This document shows positions 1-14,542 of a stretch of DNA of 14,542 nucleotides, piece after piece. Source of the stretch: Sphingomonas bacterium (GTDB taxonomy: Bacteria > Pseudomonadota > Alphaproteobacteria > Sphingomonadales > Sphingomonadaceae); NCBI GenBank assembly GCA_026785965.1, contig JAJAYY010000051.1, positions 1-14,542 of the forward strand, given 5' to 3'. Both the position numbers and the translations under genes were made by a program. Within the stretch, counting starts at the first letter, position 1. Each line of letters opens with the position of its first letter. The notes under the pieces were generated by a model that made no database searches, had not been told where the DNA came from, and worked only from the letters and a program-made list of their open reading frames with translations.

Positions 1-730
1 GCCCTATTGGATCCGCCTGGATGTACCGCCCCGTGGTGGTGTCATAGTCGCGATATCGATTGTAGTAGAGGTCGGCGAGCGTTCGGGTTTGACCCGGGAA
101 CCCGACCGCGGTGTAGCCGGTGGGGGTAGCGGTCGCTCCTGACGCATTGGTGGTGAGAAGCGGAACACCGAGGTGGCTGCCGTGCACCCAGTACAGCGTG
201 GCCGCCGCGCCCGATCCGCCGACCAGGGCGAGTGGGGCGTAGCCCGCGGTGCCGTCGTTGCCGCCGAACATATTGTCGTTGGCCACCTCCGGCTGCATCC
301 AGATGGTCTCGGCAAGCGGTGCCGCGGCCGAGGCGCCATATTCACCGAGCAGACGGCCGTCGGGATCATAGACATAGGTCCGCGTATTGGCCTTGGTGGT
401 GCCGAACTTGGCGCTCACCGTCACGCGGTCGTCGAGGCCGTTATAGGCGTTGGTCTGCGCTTCGCTGCCGGTGCGGTTGTAGGTCAGCAGACGTCCGTAG
501 CCATCGTAGCTGGTCGAGACCGAGATGTTGCCGGGCCGGCTCGCCGAGCTGGTGTTGCCACGCGCGTCGTATCCGATCGTGCGGGTGCCCGAGGCGCTCA
601 CGATCGAGGCCAGTCGATTGGTGCCAGTGGTCCGGTTGTAGGTGTCGCTCGCCACCGGATTGGCATCGGTGGCGTTGGTCCGTTGCTGGACGCCGGTGCG
701 GTTGCCGTTCCCATTACGGTGACAGTGCAC
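1..730 (-). pseudogene. Rhs/YD-repeat protein, C-terminal core fragment, 5'-truncated
   Basis: Reading the minus strand, one frame is open from just after a TGA at 731-733 to the left edge, about 243 codons. It shows YD-type repeats (NGNRT, IGYDARGN, SYDGYGRLLTYN, YNGLDDRV, YVYDPDGRLLGEY), then WVHGSHLGVPLLTT and finally the Rhs-associated core signature LYYNRYRDYDTTTGRYIQAD near positions 1-72. Rhs proteins are usually over 1,000 residues: a repeat barrel that ends at this core and then a variable toxin or tip domain. Here the tip lies off the left edge and most of the barrel is missing at the 5' side. The first usable start would be GTG at 728-730, with no Shine-Dalgarno that I can see. I infer a remnant of a larger rhs gene, cut where a duplicated ATTACGGTGACAG motif begins (713). 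It could instead be an orphan rhs tip cassette of the kind that reshuffles by recombination, but it has no credible start of its own. Confidence 0.85.
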
Positions 731-9037: not shown

Positions 9038-9799
9038 TTAATCGATCTTGCCCAACCCGCCGGGGCCGATGATGTCGCCGAAAAAGCGTTCGACCTCATC
9101 GTAACATTCGCACGCCAGGCGCTCGAGCCCGGCGCGATCATTGATCTCGATCGTCCCGCGACGAGTGGTGATCAGCCTGTCGCCGGCAAGGTCGCGCGCG
9201 ACCGCGTTGATGGTGGTGCGCTGCACGCCGAGCAATCCCGCCAACGCCTCCTGTGTCAGCACGAGCCTGCTTCCCGACCGGTCGTCGGCGGTCAACAGCC
9301 AGCGCGCCGTCCGGGCCTCGATCGGGTGAAAGCTGTTGCAGGCCACCGACTGCATCACCTGCGCAAGCAGGAAATCGGCATAGCGGCAAAAGACATTGCG
9401 CAAATGGCCCGATTCTGATTTGGCTTCCTCAATGATCCGCATCGGTACGCGCATCGCCGGACCCGCGACGATCACTTCGGCACGCGTGAAAGCGGGCGAA
9501 TGTCCGCAACTGACGATGCCGCCAACCGCGCCCTCTTTGCCAACCGATGCGACCTCGATCGAGCGGCCGCCGACCAGGTCAACGACCATCGAAATCATCG
9601 TCGTCCCGAACGGGAAGACAGATGTTTCGACATCGACCCCGCGCTGAAGCACCGTATCGCCCAGCTCAAGCTGAACGATGTGCATTTCATCGCGAAGACG
9701 CTTGCGAAGGTCCATCGGGAAGGTGGCGAGCAAGCGATTGTCGATGAATGCCTTTTCGCCCGCGGCAATCGCGGCGCGGGTAGGGCCGATGTCGGCCAT
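9038..9799 (-). CDS. Crp/Fnr-family transcriptional regulator
   Basis: The 253-residue product has an N-terminal cyclic-nucleotide-binding-like beta-roll (LELGDTVLQRGVDVETSVFPFG, ISMVVDLVGGRSIEVASVGKEGAVGG) and a C-terminal winged helix of the Crp type (LTQEALAGLLGVQRTTINAVARDL, then TTRRGTIEINDRAGLERLAC). The beta-roll lacks an obvious cAMP-binding RxSx pocket, and no Fnr-like N-terminal cysteine cluster is seen, so the effector is unknown. Similar two-domain regulators are abundant in sphingomonads. ATG 9799 is chosen because homology begins just after it; a 39-residue upstream extension (to 9916) is Arg-rich and unlike the family. Only a weak AGGA lies 10 nt upstream. It converges with pyrC across 45 bp and diverges from the tRNA. 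Targets cannot be deduced. Confidence 0.9.
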   Translation of the reverse strand: MADIGPTRAAIAAGEKAFIDNRLLATFPMDLRKRLRDEMHIVQLELGDTVLQRGVDVETSVFPFGTTMISMVVDLVGGRSIEVASVGKEGAVGGIVSCGHSPAFTRAEVIVAGPAMRVPMRIIEEAKSESGHLRNVFCRYADFLLAQVMQSVACNSFHPIEARTARWLLTADDRSGSRLVLTQEALAGLLGVQRTTINAVARDLAGDRLITTRRGTIEINDRAGLERLACECYDEVERFFGDIIGPGGLGKID

Positions 9800-9921
9800 G
9801 AAGCTGGTGTCCTGTGCAGCGCGCGGGTTCCGGAGCGCCAAACGCCCTCGTCTAAAACATCTGGCGCGCAATTCGTTTCCCATCGCCAACGACTTATCGC
9901 AAATGCCGTTGCCCAAGGTGG

Positions 9922-9970: not shown

Positions 9971-10060
9971 GGAGACGTGGGTGAGTGGCTGAAACCAACG
10001 CTTTGCTAAAGCGTCATACGGGAAACTGTATCGAGGGTTCGAATCCCTCCGTCTCCGCCA
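9971..10060 (+). tRNA. tRNA-Ser (anticodon GCU)
   Basis: This is a 90-nt cloverleaf with encoded CCA. The acceptor arms GGAGACG/CGTCTCC pair perfectly, followed by discriminator G. The anticodon stem ACGCT/AGCGT holds loop TTGCTAA, with anticodon GCT at 10005-10007 (reads AGC/AGU serine codons). A long variable arm (ATAC...GTAT) marks a class II tRNA, as expected for serine. The T arm is GAGGG-TTCGAAT-CCCTC. A decayed recombinase lies just 3', so this gene may have served as an integration site. Confidence 0.96.
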
Positions 10061-10227
10061 TGGCGTCAAGCCATTGATATGATTGTGATTTACGGCACAC
10101 AAAAAATGCCGGAAAGCCCCGATAAACGGAGGCGAGACGCACTCAGGAGAGCGTATCTCCATGCCCCATCTCTCTGCAAATATGGACTTTTCTCCCGAGG
10201 CGAATTCGCCAGTGCAGGATTCGCTCA

Positions 10228-10622: not shown

Positions 10623-10997
10623 TCATCCCGCGAACGCCATCGTCGACAAGAGCGCGAACTGCGCCTGCCGCGAATCGAGCCGTGTGTGCTGGACGACGAT
10701 CGGCACGTCGGAGACGATCAGCGAGGCATAATCGGTATCGCGCGGCACCGGCTCGGGATCGTCGAGCTCGTTGAAGCGCAAGCGCAGCGTGCGCTGTGCG
10801 GGCACGACCACCCGGTATGGCCCAACCGGAACGTGATCGACGAAATAGATCGTGATCGCGATATGCGCATCGACATCGCCGGCGTTGAGAATACACGCCG
10901 CCTCGTGGCTCAACAGCGAACGCCCGGCGCCGGGCAGGCTCTCGCTGGGGATGAAGCCTTCGGGAATCGCCCAATGGGTCCGGCCGATCGCCATCAT
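10623..10997 (-). CDS. ASRT-like (sensory-rhodopsin-transducer family) small protein
   Basis: This 124-residue soluble protein matches the Anabaena sensory rhodopsin transducer superfamily (PF07100 type) from end to end: IGRTHWAIPEGFIPS, SHEAACILNAGDVDAHI, ITIYFVDHVPVGPYRV, RTLRLRFNELDDPEPVPRDT and VPIVVQHTRLDSRQAQ. The founding member forms a beta-sandwich tetramer that binds a microbial rhodopsin; the wider family has been proposed to bind small molecules such as sugars. No rhodopsin is in this window. The start ATG 10997 overlaps the previous gene's stop by 4 nt (ATGA), with GGAG at 11003-11006, 5 nt upstream. It is the last gene of a four-gene overlapping operon with a glycosidase, a hydroxy-acid oxidase and a thiamine enzyme, so a metabolite-binding or regulatory role fits better than light signalling. 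Confidence 0.9.
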   Translation of the reverse strand: MMAIGRTHWAIPEGFIPSESLPGAGRSLLSHEAACILNAGDVDAHIAITIYFVDHVPVGPYRVVVPAQRTLRLRFNELDDPEPVPRDTDYASLIVSDVPIVVQHTRLDSRQAQFALLSTMAFAG

Positions 10998-12775
10998 GCT
11001 TTCTCCGGCAGAATGTTGGCGAGCACCTGCCGCGCCGCGCCGGCGATGCTGTGAAGCCCACCGCTATCGCCCTTCGCCGCGAAGCTGACGAAATTGCGCG
11101 CCTGTTCGAAACTGATGTGCGGCGGCAGCGGCGGCACTTCTGGATCAGCCTTGACCTCCAGCACCACCGGGCGGTCCGCCGCCAGCGCGCGATCCCACGC
11201 CGGCCCCAGCTGCTCGGGATCGTCGACGAAGATGCCCTCCAGCCCGATCAGCTCGGCAAATTTGTGGTAGGGTACGTCGGGCAGCGATTGGGTGGCGTCG
11301 AACTTCGGATTGCCCTCCATGATCCGCTGCTCCCAGGTCACCTGGTTCAGATCTTCGTTGTTGAGCACCATCACGATCAGCCGCGGGTCGGCCCAGCGCT
11401 GCCAATATTTGGCGATGGTGATCAGCTCGGCCATGTTGTTCATCTGCATCGCGCCGTCGCCGACCATGGCGATCACCGGCCGGTCGGGATAGGCGAACTT
11501 GGCGGCGATCGCATAGGGCACCGCCGCGCCCATCGAGGCGAGGCCGCCCGACAGCGACGCCATCATGCCGCGCCGGATCTTCAAGTCGCGCGCATACCAA
11601 TTGGCGCACGATCCCGAATCGCTGGTCAGGATCACGCCGTCGGGCAGGCGCGGCGACAATTCGGTGAACACGCGCTGCGGGTTGACCGGCGTCGCCGGCA
11701 CCTTGGCGCGCGCGTCGAGCGTCTTCCACCAGTCATCGACCCAGCCGGCGATCCCATCGCGCCAGGCGGTGTCGGGTTTCTGGTCGAGCAGTGGCAGGAG
11801 CGCGGTGAGCGTCGCGCCGACATCGCCGGTCAAATTCGCCTCCATCGGGTAGCGGATCGACAGCATCGCCGGATCGAGATCGACCTGCACGCCGCGCGCC
11901 TTGCCCTCTTCGGGCAGGAATTCGGCATAGGGAAAGCCCGATCCGAGCATCAGAAGCGTGTCGCACGCCATCATCATCTCATAGCTCGGCCGCGTGCCGA
12001 GCATGCCGATCGATCCGGTGACCCAGGGAAGGTCGTCGGGCAGCACCTGCTTGCCGAGCAGCGCCTTGGCCGCGCCCGCGCCGAGCCGGTCGGCGACCGC
12101 GATGACGAGGTCGGTAGCATGTTTCGCGCCTGCACCGACGAGGATCGCGACCTTCTTGCCCGAATTGAGAATGTCAGCGGCGCGGAATAGATCGGCATCG
12201 ACGGGCACCACCTTGGGCGCGCTCCAGCCTATCCCTGAGAACACCGCGCCGTGCTTGCGCGGCGGCGCCTCCATCGGCAATTCCTGCAGGTCGTTGGGCA
12301 GGATCAGCGCGGTGACCTTGCGATGCCCCAGCGCGATCCGCACTGCACGATCGACCAGATGGCGGACCTGCGCCGGCACCATTGCGGTCTGCACGAACGC
12401 GGTCACGTCGGCGAACATAGCCGAGAGATCGACCTCTTGCTGGTAATGCGCGCCCCTCGCGGTGCGTGCCTACTGCCCGGCGATGGCAAGCACGGGCATG
12501 TGATCGGCCCTGGCATCATAGAGCCCGGTGATGAGATGTGCCGCGCCCGGGCCGGAGGTGGCGAGGCACACGCCAAGCTCGCCGGTGAATTTGGCATGGG
12601 CCGACGCCATGAACGCCGCCATCTCCTCGTGCCGGACCTGGACGAATTCGAAATCGTCGCGCTTCTGCAGCGCGCCGAGCAGCCCGTTAATGCCATCGCC
12701 GGGATAGCCGAAGATCCGGCGCACGCCCCATTGGTGGAGCCGTTCCCAGAAGAAATCACTGACGGTCTGGCTCAT
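10994..12775 (-). pseudogene. Thiamine-diphosphate pyruvate-oxidase-like enzyme, interrupted by one in-frame amber codon
   Basis: Family members (pyruvate oxidase/PoxB and acetolactate-synthase-like) bind thiamine diphosphate, often FAD, and oxidatively decarboxylate 2-oxo acids. Read through, the frame is 593 residues. The PYR domain has GYPGDGINGLLGAL and the catalytic Glu in VRHEEMAAF (about 50). The middle domain has VAILVGAGAK and PYAEFLPEEGKARGVQVDLD. The PP domain carries the cofactor motif GDG (439-441) ... NNEDLNQVTWEQR. Codon 102 is TAG (12470-12472), inside what should be GQQARTARGAHYQQEV, where the family has Gln. Both halves share one frame. A restart at ATG 12418 would give 474 residues without the catalytic Glu. 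The start ATG 12775 overlaps the previous stop by 4 nt and has GGAGG 5 nt upstream. The likely partner is the upstream hydroxy-acid oxidase, which would supply its 2-oxo acid. Confidence 0.9.
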
Positions 12776-14013
12776 GCGGTCCTCCGGGTTGGTTTGGTGT
12801 CGAGTGGCAGCGCCATCGTGCCGCTCGCGGCGAGCAGATGCGGTCCAAGGGCGTCGAGCGAGGCGACACCCAGCAGGCCCATCGCGTCGCAGGTTTCCTT
12901 GTGAAGAATTTCGAGGGCGCGCGCGGCGCCGGCGCTGCCGGCCGCGCAGAGGCCATAGAGAGGCGCGCGGCCCGCCATCACCGCATCCGCCCCGAGCGCC
13001 ATCGCCTTCAATATGTCGGTGCCGCGCCGGATGCCGCCGGTCATCATCACCTGCATCCGATCCCCCGCGATATCGCGGATGCGCGGCAACACGTCGAGCG
13101 CCGACACCGCCCAATCCATCTGCCGCCCGCCATGGCTGCTGACCACGATGCCATCGACGCCGCTGTCGAGCGCGATTTGCGCGTCGATCGGACTGAGGAT
13201 ACCCTTCAGCAGGAACGGACCCTTCCAGCGCTTGCGGATGGCGGTGACGGTGTCCCACGACAGCGACTTCGGCATCTGCTGGCGAATCCACGTCGCGCTG
13301 GCAAAAAAGCCGCGATGCTCCTTCGGTACGAAGTCGATCACATTGCTGAACACCGGCATGCCGTGAAGCAAAGTCCGCGCAATCCAGGCCGGATAGGTGG
13401 CGACGTCGACGATCGTCGCAAGCGACGGCTTGCCGTTCACCTGCGTGCGGTCTTCCCATTCGCGGTTGCCAAAGATTTGTGAGTTGCTTGTCAGCACCAG
13501 CGCCTCGCAGCCCGCCGCCGCAGCACGATCGACGAGGTTGTGCCAGATGCGGTCCTCGCCGAATATGTAGAGCTGGAACCAGTGGCGCAGGCCTTCGACT
13601 GCGGCGACATGCTCGATCGTGTCGTTGGACATCGTGCTTTGGGCGAACGGCACGCCCGCCGCCGCCGCGCCCGTCGCCAGCGCGACATCGGCGCCGCGGC
13701 AGAACACGCCGTTGAGGCCGGTCGGCGCGACGATCAGCGGCATCGGCGCCTTCACGCCGAGGATATCGTGTTCGGGCGTCCGGCCGCTGACGTCAACCAA
13801 CGTGCGCGGCACGAAGCGCCATTCGTTCTGTGCGGCGCGCTCTCGCGCCAGCGTCGCCTCGTCCTCCGCGCCGCCTTCGAGATATTCGAGCACAAAGCGC
13901 GGCATTCGCCGGTGGGCGCGCGCACGCAGATCCTCGATCGTCAGCGCGCGCGCGAGGTTCGGTCCGGTATAATGAGAACGACGCGGATGGCCGCGAAATT
14001 GCGCGATCGACAT
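12772..14013 (-). CDS. FMN-dependent alpha-hydroxy-acid oxidase/dehydrogenase (lactate-type)
   Basis: This 413-residue TIM-barrel flavoenzyme belongs to the family of L-lactate dehydrogenase (LldD), mandelate dehydrogenase and glycolate oxidase, which oxidise 2-hydroxy acids to 2-oxo acids. It has N-terminal Tyr44 in LEYLEGGAEDE, FMN-site APTGLNGVF, active-site HWFQLYIF, Lys in FLLKGILSP, catalytic His294 and Arg297 in SSHGGRQMDW, and phosphate-binding MTGGIRRGTDILKAMALGA followed by GRAPLYG. The insert at about 200-240 (PAWIARTLLHGMPVFSNVID) is consistent with the membrane-associated dehydrogenase branch, but the acceptor and exact substrate are uncertain. ATG 14013 overlaps the preceding stop by 1 nt (TGATG); an upstream ATG at 14223 would only add antisense-like Arg-rich sequence. 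It overlaps the thiamine-enzyme gene by 4 nt. Confidence 0.93.
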   Translation of the reverse strand: MSIAQFRGHPRRSHYTGPNLARALTIEDLRARAHRRMPRFVLEYLEGGAEDEATLARERAAQNEWRFVPRTLVDVSGRTPEHDILGVKAPMPLIVAPTGLNGVFCRGADVALATGAAAAGVPFAQSTMSNDTIEHVAAVEGLRHWFQLYIFGEDRIWHNLVDRAAAAGCEALVLTSNSQIFGNREWEDRTQVNGKPSLATIVDVATYPAWIARTLLHGMPVFSNVIDFVPKEHRGFFASATWIRQQMPKSLSWDTVTAIRKRWKGPFLLKGILSPIDAQIALDSGVDGIVVSSHGGRQMDWAVSALDVLPRIRDIAGDRMQVMMTGGIRRGTDILKAMALGADAVMAGRAPLYGLCAAGSAGAARALEILHKETCDAMGLLGVASLDALGPHLLAASGTMALPLDTKPTRRTA

Positions 14014-14542
14014 CAGCCGCGCCTGATCGTCGCGCAGCGCAGATCCTGGTCGGATTGCGAGTAATAGAGCTGCACCTTGCCGTCGCGCTCGACCGCCGAG
14101 GCGGCGAAGGCGATGTCCGTCGAACCCTCGGAGAGTGAGCCCTCGGGACAGATCAGCGGATCCTCGCAGCGCTCCGCGAGCTTGGTCAGGCTTTCGTCGA
14201 AGGTCGCCCAGCCGATCCGCCATTTCGCATCCTGCGTCGCGCCATTGTAGAACATGGTCGGCCGCTTGGTCCCTTCACCGACGATCGGTCCGGCGCTCAG
14301 ATGCCAGCAATCCCATTTGTCGCGACGCGGCGTGATCGAAGATTGGGCAATTTTGTCCCTCGGGCCGTCCAGATCGTCGGCCGAGGCTTGCCCGATCAGC
14401 GACGCGCCATGTGCCGCATATTCGAAATACATCCTCCAGCCACCCGACCCGACCGCGGCCACCGTCGCTTCCTTTGTATTTGTTAAGTCAGGGGTCGAAT
14501 CGCTCGCGAGCCCCGCTTTGGCGAGCTTGGCGACCCCAGGGC
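14013..14542 (-). CDS. GH130-like beta-propeller glycosidase/phosphorylase, partial (5' end off window)
   Basis: A minus-strand frame is open from the right edge to TGA at 14013-14015, giving the last 176 codons. It shows PDLTNTKEATV, GGWRMYFEYAAHG, WDCWHLSAGPIV, RPTMFYNGATQDAKWRIGWA, LTKLAERCEDPLI, DIAFAASAVERDGKVQLYYS and the end DQDLRCATIRR. These resemble the C-terminal blades of GH130-type enzymes (mannosyl-oligosaccharide phosphorylases and hydrolases) and related five-bladed propellers. The catalytic Asp that would lie in early blades is outside the window, so the reaction cannot be fixed. The frame continues upstream of a possible GTG at 14462 without a stop, so that codon is not the start. 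Its stop overlaps the oxidase start by 1 nt, making it the first visible gene of the operon. Confidence 0.85.
   Translation of the reverse strand, partial: PGVAKLAKAGLASDSTPDLTNTKEATVAAVGSGGWRMYFEYAAHGASLIGQASADDLDGPRDKIAQSSITPRRDKWDCWHLSAGPIVGEGTKRPTMFYNGATQDAKWRIGWATFDESLTKLAERCEDPLICPEGSLSEGSTDIAFAASAVERDGKVQLYYSQSDQDLRCATIRRG

Follow-up and report, generated by a model that had tools for sequence, protein, structure and literature searches.

A compact Sphingomonas gene run ending in an ASRT gene as a possible variant of a widespread, putative sugar-acid oxidation module

The window analysed here is the entire 14.5-kb contig C51 (JAJAYY010000051.1; 14,542 nucleotides) of a 1.8-Mb Sphingomonas metagenome-assembled genome (MAG; GCA_026785965.1) that is ~80% complete. 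On its minus strand, four genes follow one another in a run whose transcription ends at 10623: a glycoside hydrolase (GH) fragment, a flavin mononucleotide (FMN)-dependent 2-hydroxy-acid oxidase of the FMN_dh family, a thiamine diphosphate (ThDP) enzyme and ASRT, a member of the sensory-rhodopsin-transducer superfamily, with successive overlaps of 1, 4 and 4 nt:

14013..14540, minus strand: GH130/GH43-like enzyme, C-terminal 175 aa; 5' end lost at the contig edge
12772..14013, minus strand: FMN-dependent 2-hydroxy-acid oxidase/dehydrogenase (PF01070), 413 aa; 1-nt overlap with the GH fragment
10994..12775, minus strand: PoxB-like ThDP enzyme (NCBIfam PRK08273), 593 codons, interrupted by a TAG; 4-nt overlap with FMN_dh
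12470..12472, minus strand: in-frame TAG, codon 102 of the ThDP gene; a sense codon in 44/44 distinct relatives
10623..10997, minus strand: ASRT (PF07100), 124 aa, pocket signature SHEAACILN; 4-nt overlap with the ThDP gene

The stop codon of the GH fragment (14015-14013) has 1 nt in common with the ATG of FMN_dh, the ThDP ATG (12775) overlaps the FMN_dh stop (12774-12772) by 4 nt (ATGA), and the ASRT ATG (10997) overlaps the ThDP stop (10996-10994) in the same way. A first-pass annotation of the sequence had given the gene order, overlaps and family names, all of which proved correct by sequence and Pfam, and its observation as a whole is borne out in part. Pfam matching supports a firm family assignment for three of the products: FMN_dh matches PF01070 over nearly its full length (391 bits, E 6e-117, profile positions 1-349 of 350), the stop-masked ThDP frame contains all three domains TPP_enzyme_N, TPP_enzyme_M and TPP_enzyme_C, and ASRT matches PF07100 over its full length (167.8 bits against a cut-off of 25, E 1e-49, profile positions 1-119 of 119). 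Because the window is a complete contig, the start of the operon is out of sight; a search of the MAG with the N-terminal glycosidase sequence of a relative gave no match, so the operon promoter was not reached. Between 9700 and 11100, no sigma-70-type promoter was found, and there is one terminator-like site, below the shuffle mean.

To place this run in context, we compared ASRT neighborhoods in 85 loci, 79 of them from a GTDB genome scan by similarity to the window ASRT and 6 unique to a family sample, which comprises 298 genomes of the window's family (12 with ASRT, the window's own included). Five duplicates of the same contigs were removed before motif and gene-content counts, and many loci come from related genera and are not independent, so that p-values are indicative only. 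The 85 loci hold a ThDP gene in 32 cases, an MR_MLE dehydratase in 29, SDR in 36, GH15 in 30, a GlcD-type flavin adenine dinucleotide (FAD)/Fe-S oxidase in 18 and an FMN oxidase in 5, showing that ASRT is linked to these enzymes in other genomes as well. A 2-hydroxy-acid oxidase is present in 21 of the 32 ThDP loci (GlcD-type FAD/Fe-S in 17, FMN_dh in 5, one with both) versus 1 of the 53 loci scored without ThDP (Fisher p 5e-11); in that one exception, L028, the contig begins inside a truncated ThDP gene. Among the 11 oxidase-less ThDP loci, 8 carry GMC and Gluconate_2-dh3, a gluconate-2-dehydrogenase-like pair, and sugar-active partner genes in relatives further include GH15, an aldonate-type dehydratase and a lactonase. 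All 17 loci that have the ThDP gene, the FAD/Fe-S oxidase and ASRT hold the three on one strand.

In the family sample, the ThDP enzyme (E-value 1e-120; 15 of 298 genomes) occurs in 5 of 12 ASRT genomes versus 10 of 286 others (p 1e-4; 9e-4 excluding the window's genome). Of the 15 ThDP places outside the window, 10 have an FMN_dh of one of two types no more than ~1 kb away, 8 of those 10 without ASRT in the fetched stretch. The linkage of ThDP enzyme and ASRT recurs in many lineages and is beyond chance. The proposal of the first-pass annotation that the two middle enzymes act in sequence, from 2-hydroxy acid to 2-oxo acid and on to decarboxylation, is well supported by the presence of an oxidase in 21/32 ThDP loci and of FMN_dh near 10/15 ThDP places.

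The window FMN enzyme has (S)-mandelate dehydrogenase and L-lactate oxidase as its closest solved structures, and it fails the L-lactate dehydrogenase cut-offs (LldD, 246.8 versus 550; PRK11197, 283 versus 376). Because ThDP loci carry either oxidase, and loci without ThDP nearly never do, the FMN enzyme looks like a substitute for the FAD/Fe-S (GlcD-type) oxidase at the same step. Four of the fetched stretches have, near a ThDP gene, a second type of FMN_dh.

The first-pass annotation had overlooked the TAG in the ThDP gene; the remainder of the frame, 490 codons, is open. Codon 102 is Q in 35, A in 7 and T in 2 of 44 distinct aligned relatives and a stop in none; counting duplicate fetches, 61 ThDP matches contain no stop codon, and the equivalent of codon 102 is a sense codon in 61/61. 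Either the gene is broken, as it stands in the assembly, or the contig contains an error. The part after the stop (codons 104-593) reaches 838.6 bits against the NF006129 (PRK08273) cut-off of 724. Among the 25 family matches listed, the enzyme passes the PRK08273 cut-off alone and that of no pyruvate oxidase: the post-stop part scores 253.2 versus 792 for the ubiquinone-dependent enzyme and 193.3 versus 637.85 for SpxB, and an intact Stakelama relative, L019, fails the same cut-offs (377.6 and 324.3).

We used L019, 77% identical to the window ThDP frame, for the comparison with E. coli PoxB (PDB 3EY9). The two proteins are homologous over nearly their whole length, with the same domain order and Glu50 kept, although only 186 of 549 aligned residues are identical and PoxB beyond residue 552 is unaligned. 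PoxB residues F112, V380 and F465, which we take to form the hydrophobic pyruvate/FAD pocket, are replaced by Q, S and Q in both L019 and the window enzyme. Across 40 distinct relatives (55 rows with duplicate fetches), these positions read QSQ in 32, QSE in 3, QSM in 3, QAQ in 1 and QCQ in 1, and never F, V, F. Such a polar pocket appears to fit a polyhydroxylated 2-oxo acid better than pyruvate. Of the "central carbon or sugar-acid" catabolism suggested by the first-pass annotation, the sugar-acid half is favored and the central-carbon half (pyruvate or lactate) seems less likely, because the pocket residues and the partner genes both point to polyhydroxylated substrates.

Five ThDP loci (L099, L139, L140, L141 and L144) have, between the ThDP and Gluconate_2-dh3/GMC genes, a protein of ~270 aa with hydrophobic stretches, conserved His and HFRGAYHNPxMWxP-like motifs. 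It gave no Pfam match in the two members scanned and is perhaps a membrane cytochrome or anchor.

The window ASRT is identical to Anabaena ASRT (PDB 2II7) at 78 of 121 residues over its full length; it differs in having no adjacent rhodopsin and in carrying F at the DNA contact N113. It contains the ligand-pocket signature SHEshChhN, as SHEAACILN, plus the conserved W9. Of the pocket residues, W, H and N are conserved in all loci but one, which is a partial match (84 of 85), and C is conserved in 82 of 85. PMC8660804 reports that Anabaena ASRT binds and loops DNA and alters reporter expression, with R109, Q110 and N113 as DNA contacts, and that a random sequence was looped more than the promoter fragment. 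R109 is conserved in all 85 loci, Q110 in 53 of them and N113 in 17. The near-invariant pocket, set against variable DNA contacts, favors ligand binding as the function that ASRT proteins share, and a mainly DNA-binding role was rejected because the reported contacts vary between loci. The Anabaena asr-asrt pair is listed under Fur control in PMC12282138, which has no bearing on the window. Three loci (L026, L064 and L089) contain two ASRT paralogues ~1.2-1.3 kb apart, the second being 34-43% identical to the window protein.

We searched for the general-stress (EcfG) promoter motif of Sphingomonas melonis Fr1, GGAAC-N17-20-GTT as given in PMC6599016, for ASRT from 200 nt upstream to 30 nt inside the gene, with the expectation computed from the loci's own background. 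Alphaproteobacteria labels were assigned by us from record titles and kinship; of the 55 non-alphaproteobacterial loci, L092 (a partial match) was dropped, leaving 54. The motif lies upstream of ASRT at 17 of 30 alphaproteobacterial loci, where 0.57 were expected, versus 1 of 54 in other groups. It is found at the ThDP gene in 7 of 10 alphaproteobacterial cases and 0 of 22 others and at FMN_dh in 3 of 5; among other partner genes, it occurs at GH15 in 1 of 10, amylase in 2 of 6 and TreS in 1 of 6, with no excess for SDR (0/12), GMC (0/6) or dehydratase (0/6). As controls, 9 of 320 other open reading frames (ORFs) of the same loci, picked by a simple greedy rule that may admit false ORFs, carry the motif, and altered spacers gave 1 to 4 of 30. 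In the family sample, the motif stands 48-77 nt upstream of the inferred start in all 8 ThDP genes with 70% identity or more and in none of the 7 with 63-66%.

The ASRT, ThDP and FMN genes of relatives are thus like members of the alphaproteobacterial EcfG regulon in carrying the published motif shortly upstream, which suggests that the module is in many cases part of the general stress response of bacteria. We found no paper joining EcfG and ASRT in the open-licence literature searched, and the main texts of two studies of sphingomonad EcfG regulons (PMC6599016 and PMC7083833) contain neither "rhodopsin" nor "thiamine". A second, diverged ThDP group (L146, L147, L148 and L150; 64-66% identical) comes with the other FMN_dh type and GMC/Gluconate_2-dh3, and its ThDP genes have no EcfG motif directly upstream.

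At the head of the run, the gene first annotated as a glycosidase is cut by the contig end, which leaves roughly its C-terminal 60%, and this fragment reached no family in a Pfam scan; we presume that it has a GH130/GH43-like five-bladed propeller fold. Its best named relatives, weakly, are beta-1,2-mannobiose phosphorylases of GH130 type (NCBIfam 29.2 bits versus a cut-off of 550). A full-length relative in genome G279 (L117), 54% identical over the fragment, passes PF04041 (39.7 bits versus 26). The catalytic Asp of GH130 enzymes is N-terminal, and the N-terminal part of the window gene lies beyond the contig. In G279, SMP-30/gluconolactonase and another FMN_dh come after the GH130 relative, all in one run; in G123, a GH130 relative lies ~1 kb from ASRT on the opposite strand, with an SDR-like match between them. 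GH matches occur in 26 of 298 family genomes, and of the 25 besides the window's own, ASRT is also present in two (G123 and G191). The GH gene is the least conserved part of the operon, since it is close to ASRT only in G123.

Taken together, these comparisons lead us to a reading to which we give nearly an even chance: the four-gene run would be a compact form of a widespread module for oxidizing sugar acids, with ASRT, driven by EcfG in many Alphaproteobacteria. A glycan-active enzyme, GH130-like in this run and a GH15 trehalase-like or amylase/trehalose enzyme in relatives, would supply sugar that is converted to an aldonic acid, which the FMN enzyme would oxidize from 2-hydroxy acid to 2-oxo acid. 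The PoxB-like enzyme, presumably using FAD as well as ThDP, would then carry out oxidative decarboxylation to an acid one carbon shorter, passing electrons to the respiratory chain, if flux runs in this direction. ASRT may bind a substrate or product of the pathway and tune its partners, either the enzymes themselves or their expression. The general stress sigma factor EcfG would turn the module on in many Alphaproteobacteria, and it may do so for the window operon as well.

Several observations weigh against this reading. The stop in the ThDP gene means that this copy may be inactive, and the MR_MLE dehydratase found in 25 of 32 ThDP-bearing ASRT loci is not on the window contig. ASRT is not confined to this pathway, because 53 of 85 loci have no ThDP gene within the flank covered, some flanks being short. 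FMN_dh lies on the strand opposite to ASRT in all 5 other loci that contain the two genes, as does the ThDP gene in 10 of 32; the co-directional FMN-ThDP-ASRT run is hence a local layout of a gene set that is conserved, and not a conserved operon, and the fusion of all four genes is particular to this MAG. The statement of the first-pass annotation that the products are very likely made together holds on this contig, but not for the FMN-ASRT pair elsewhere. The second FMN_dh type has a member, in G279, that passes the PRK11197 L-lactate dehydrogenase cut-off (398 versus 376). As for stress control, 13 of 30 alphaproteobacterial ASRT genes are without the EcfG motif, a scan of the window with GGAAC-N15-18-NGTT gave no match, its own promoter being beyond the contig, and a search of the MAG for NepR gave a best score of 13.5 bits, below the cut-off, and did not find PhyR, which is weak evidence because the MAG is ~80% complete.

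Rhodopsin-free ASRT operons were described by De Souza, Iyer and Aravind in 2009 (PMC2739507), who reported them with a pyruvate decarboxylase/oxidase and a glycolate-oxidase-like enzyme, proposed sugar sensing and noted the rhodopsin link only in Nostoc. Their ASRT/ASRAH operons share with the window a stand-alone ASRT, a ThDP enzyme, a 2-hydroxy-acid oxidase and the lack of an adjacent rhodopsin. Their oxidase is an FAD enzyme related to glycolate oxidase, a dehydratase/racemase is named and EcfG goes unmentioned, whereas the window has an FMN oxidase of another family, a GH130-like enzyme and a single overlapping run. The claim in the first-pass annotation of an undescribed ASRT role falls because sugar sensing had been proposed there from the same kind of neighborhoods; a metabolite-sensing ASRT remains plausible but is not new, and the earlier interpretation is supported in part. 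In the open-licence literature, this was the only paper that we found to name the family (PF07100/DUF1362), and we found no test of the sugar-sensor proposal. The interchangeable oxidases at one step, the polar ThDP pocket and the stress promoter in relatives are additions of the present analysis.

In five same-genus genomes, nucleotide similarity to the window stops at 10060-10061, at the 3' end of a tRNA gene, except for one 42-nt match inside FMN_dh (L168). Two features border this edge:

9971..10060, plus strand: tRNA-Ser(GCT), where conservation within the genus stops; past its 3' end lies the operon
9041-9916, minus strand: CRP/FNR-type regulator (HTH_Crp_2), on the strand of the operon and immediately downstream of it

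Four of the 5 genomes share the window's order acnA, pyrC, CRP-type regulator, tRNA-Ser, and in L168 the tRNA-Ser is farther off and inverted. The regulator is not specific to the operon, because it is matched in 24 of 31 searched genomes of the genus. A search of 70 further genomes of the genus, of which 53 are 90% or more complete, found no ASRT, and the GC content and third-position GC (GC3) of the operon agree with those of core genes. The operon is an accessory locus and was probably acquired. The genes scanned near tRNA-Ser vary by genome (metal ATPase and multicopper oxidase, glycosyltransferase, thiolase, AsnC-type regulator). A mobile element at tRNA-Ser was considered and dropped, as no integrase was found among eight flank proteins scanned from five same-genus genomes, with some flank ORFs left unscanned.

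That the ThDP enzyme and oxidase resemble PoxB and lactate/mandelate dehydrogenases, their nearest characterized families, raises the idea of a lactate/pyruvate overflow shunt, in which an L-lactate dehydrogenase and a pyruvate oxidase would yield acetate and CO2 with ASRT as a bystander or redox sensor. The G279 member of the second FMN_dh type speaks for it, as does the control of E. coli poxB by the general stress sigma factor. Yet the window FMN enzyme falls under both the LldD and PRK11197 cut-offs, the ThDP enzyme passes no pyruvate oxidase cut-off among the family matches listed, the three aligned PoxB pocket residues are polar in most relatives and the partner genes are sugar-active, and we regard the shunt as unlikely. 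For ASRT itself, the kinship to the Anabaena protein and the invariance of R109 would be in keeping with a protein that mainly binds DNA and regulates its own operon instead of sensing a metabolite, as proposed for Anabaena ASRT, which loops DNA and shifts reporter expression (PMC8660804). This is distinctly unlikely in our view, given that Q110 and N113 vary while the pocket hardly does and that random sequence out-looped the promoter fragment in that study; DNA binding and ligand sensing can, moreover, coexist.

The in-frame stop, the absence of ASRT from all 70 other genomes of the genus and the start of the locus just past tRNA-Ser, where genus similarity stops, could also mean that it is horizontally acquired, decaying and functionless in this strain. 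We hold this to be rather unlikely, as the remaining ThDP frame is open, GC and GC3 are like those of core genes, the lone stop may be an assembly or sequencing error and no integrase was seen among the eight flank proteins of relatives. Finally, ASRT might serve a rhodopsin of the genome in trans, in light sensing. The first-pass annotation had described the operon as being without any rhodopsin, which is right for the contig, where none lies beside the operon (the stretch upstream of the glycosidase being past the contig end), but not for the MAG: its contig C229 (L093:3-1300) holds a C-terminal rhodopsin fragment and, after it, a gene for a beta-carotene dioxygenase of the Brp/Blh type (PF15461, TIGR03753). 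A rhodopsin beside a retinal-making enzyme is the arrangement of light-driven pump cassettes, and the pair on C229 is probably such a cassette. ASRT and rhodopsin show no co-occurrence beyond chance in the 298-genome family sample (2 of 12 ASRT genomes versus 41 of 286 others, p 0.54); a functional rhodopsin link was rejected on this ground, and with the rhodopsin gene on another contig, service in trans is highly improbable.

The sugar-acid reading can be carried further, to a model that we offer as speculation and think unlikely to hold: ASRT would be the metabolite sensor of a general-stress pathway, EcfG-controlled in Alphaproteobacteria, that shortens sugar acids by repeated alpha-oxidation. 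An oxidase would form a 2-oxo-aldonate, and the PRK08273 ThDP/FAD enzyme would convert it to the next lower aldonate, again a 2-hydroxy acid, which would re-enter. Storage or compatible sugars (trehalose, glycans) would in this way yield respiratory electrons without glycolysis or phosphorylation, and FMN, FAD/Fe-S and GMC oxidases would have been recruited to one step. The role of ASRT outside Anabaena is the question posed, with a sugar-sensor proposal, in 2009 (PMC2739507), and the present comparison yields a defined enzyme set, a predicted substrate class and a predicted EcfG switch that is present in genetically tractable Alphaproteobacteria. If the model is true, ASRT would be a sensor in stress carbon metabolism, and PRK08273, named merely "thiamine pyrophosphate-requiring protein" in NCBIfam, would acquire a function.

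One further ORF lies at the opposite end of the window:

2-730, minus strand: ORF at the left contig edge; no Pfam match

We take its motif to resemble the C-terminal end of an RHS-repeat protein.

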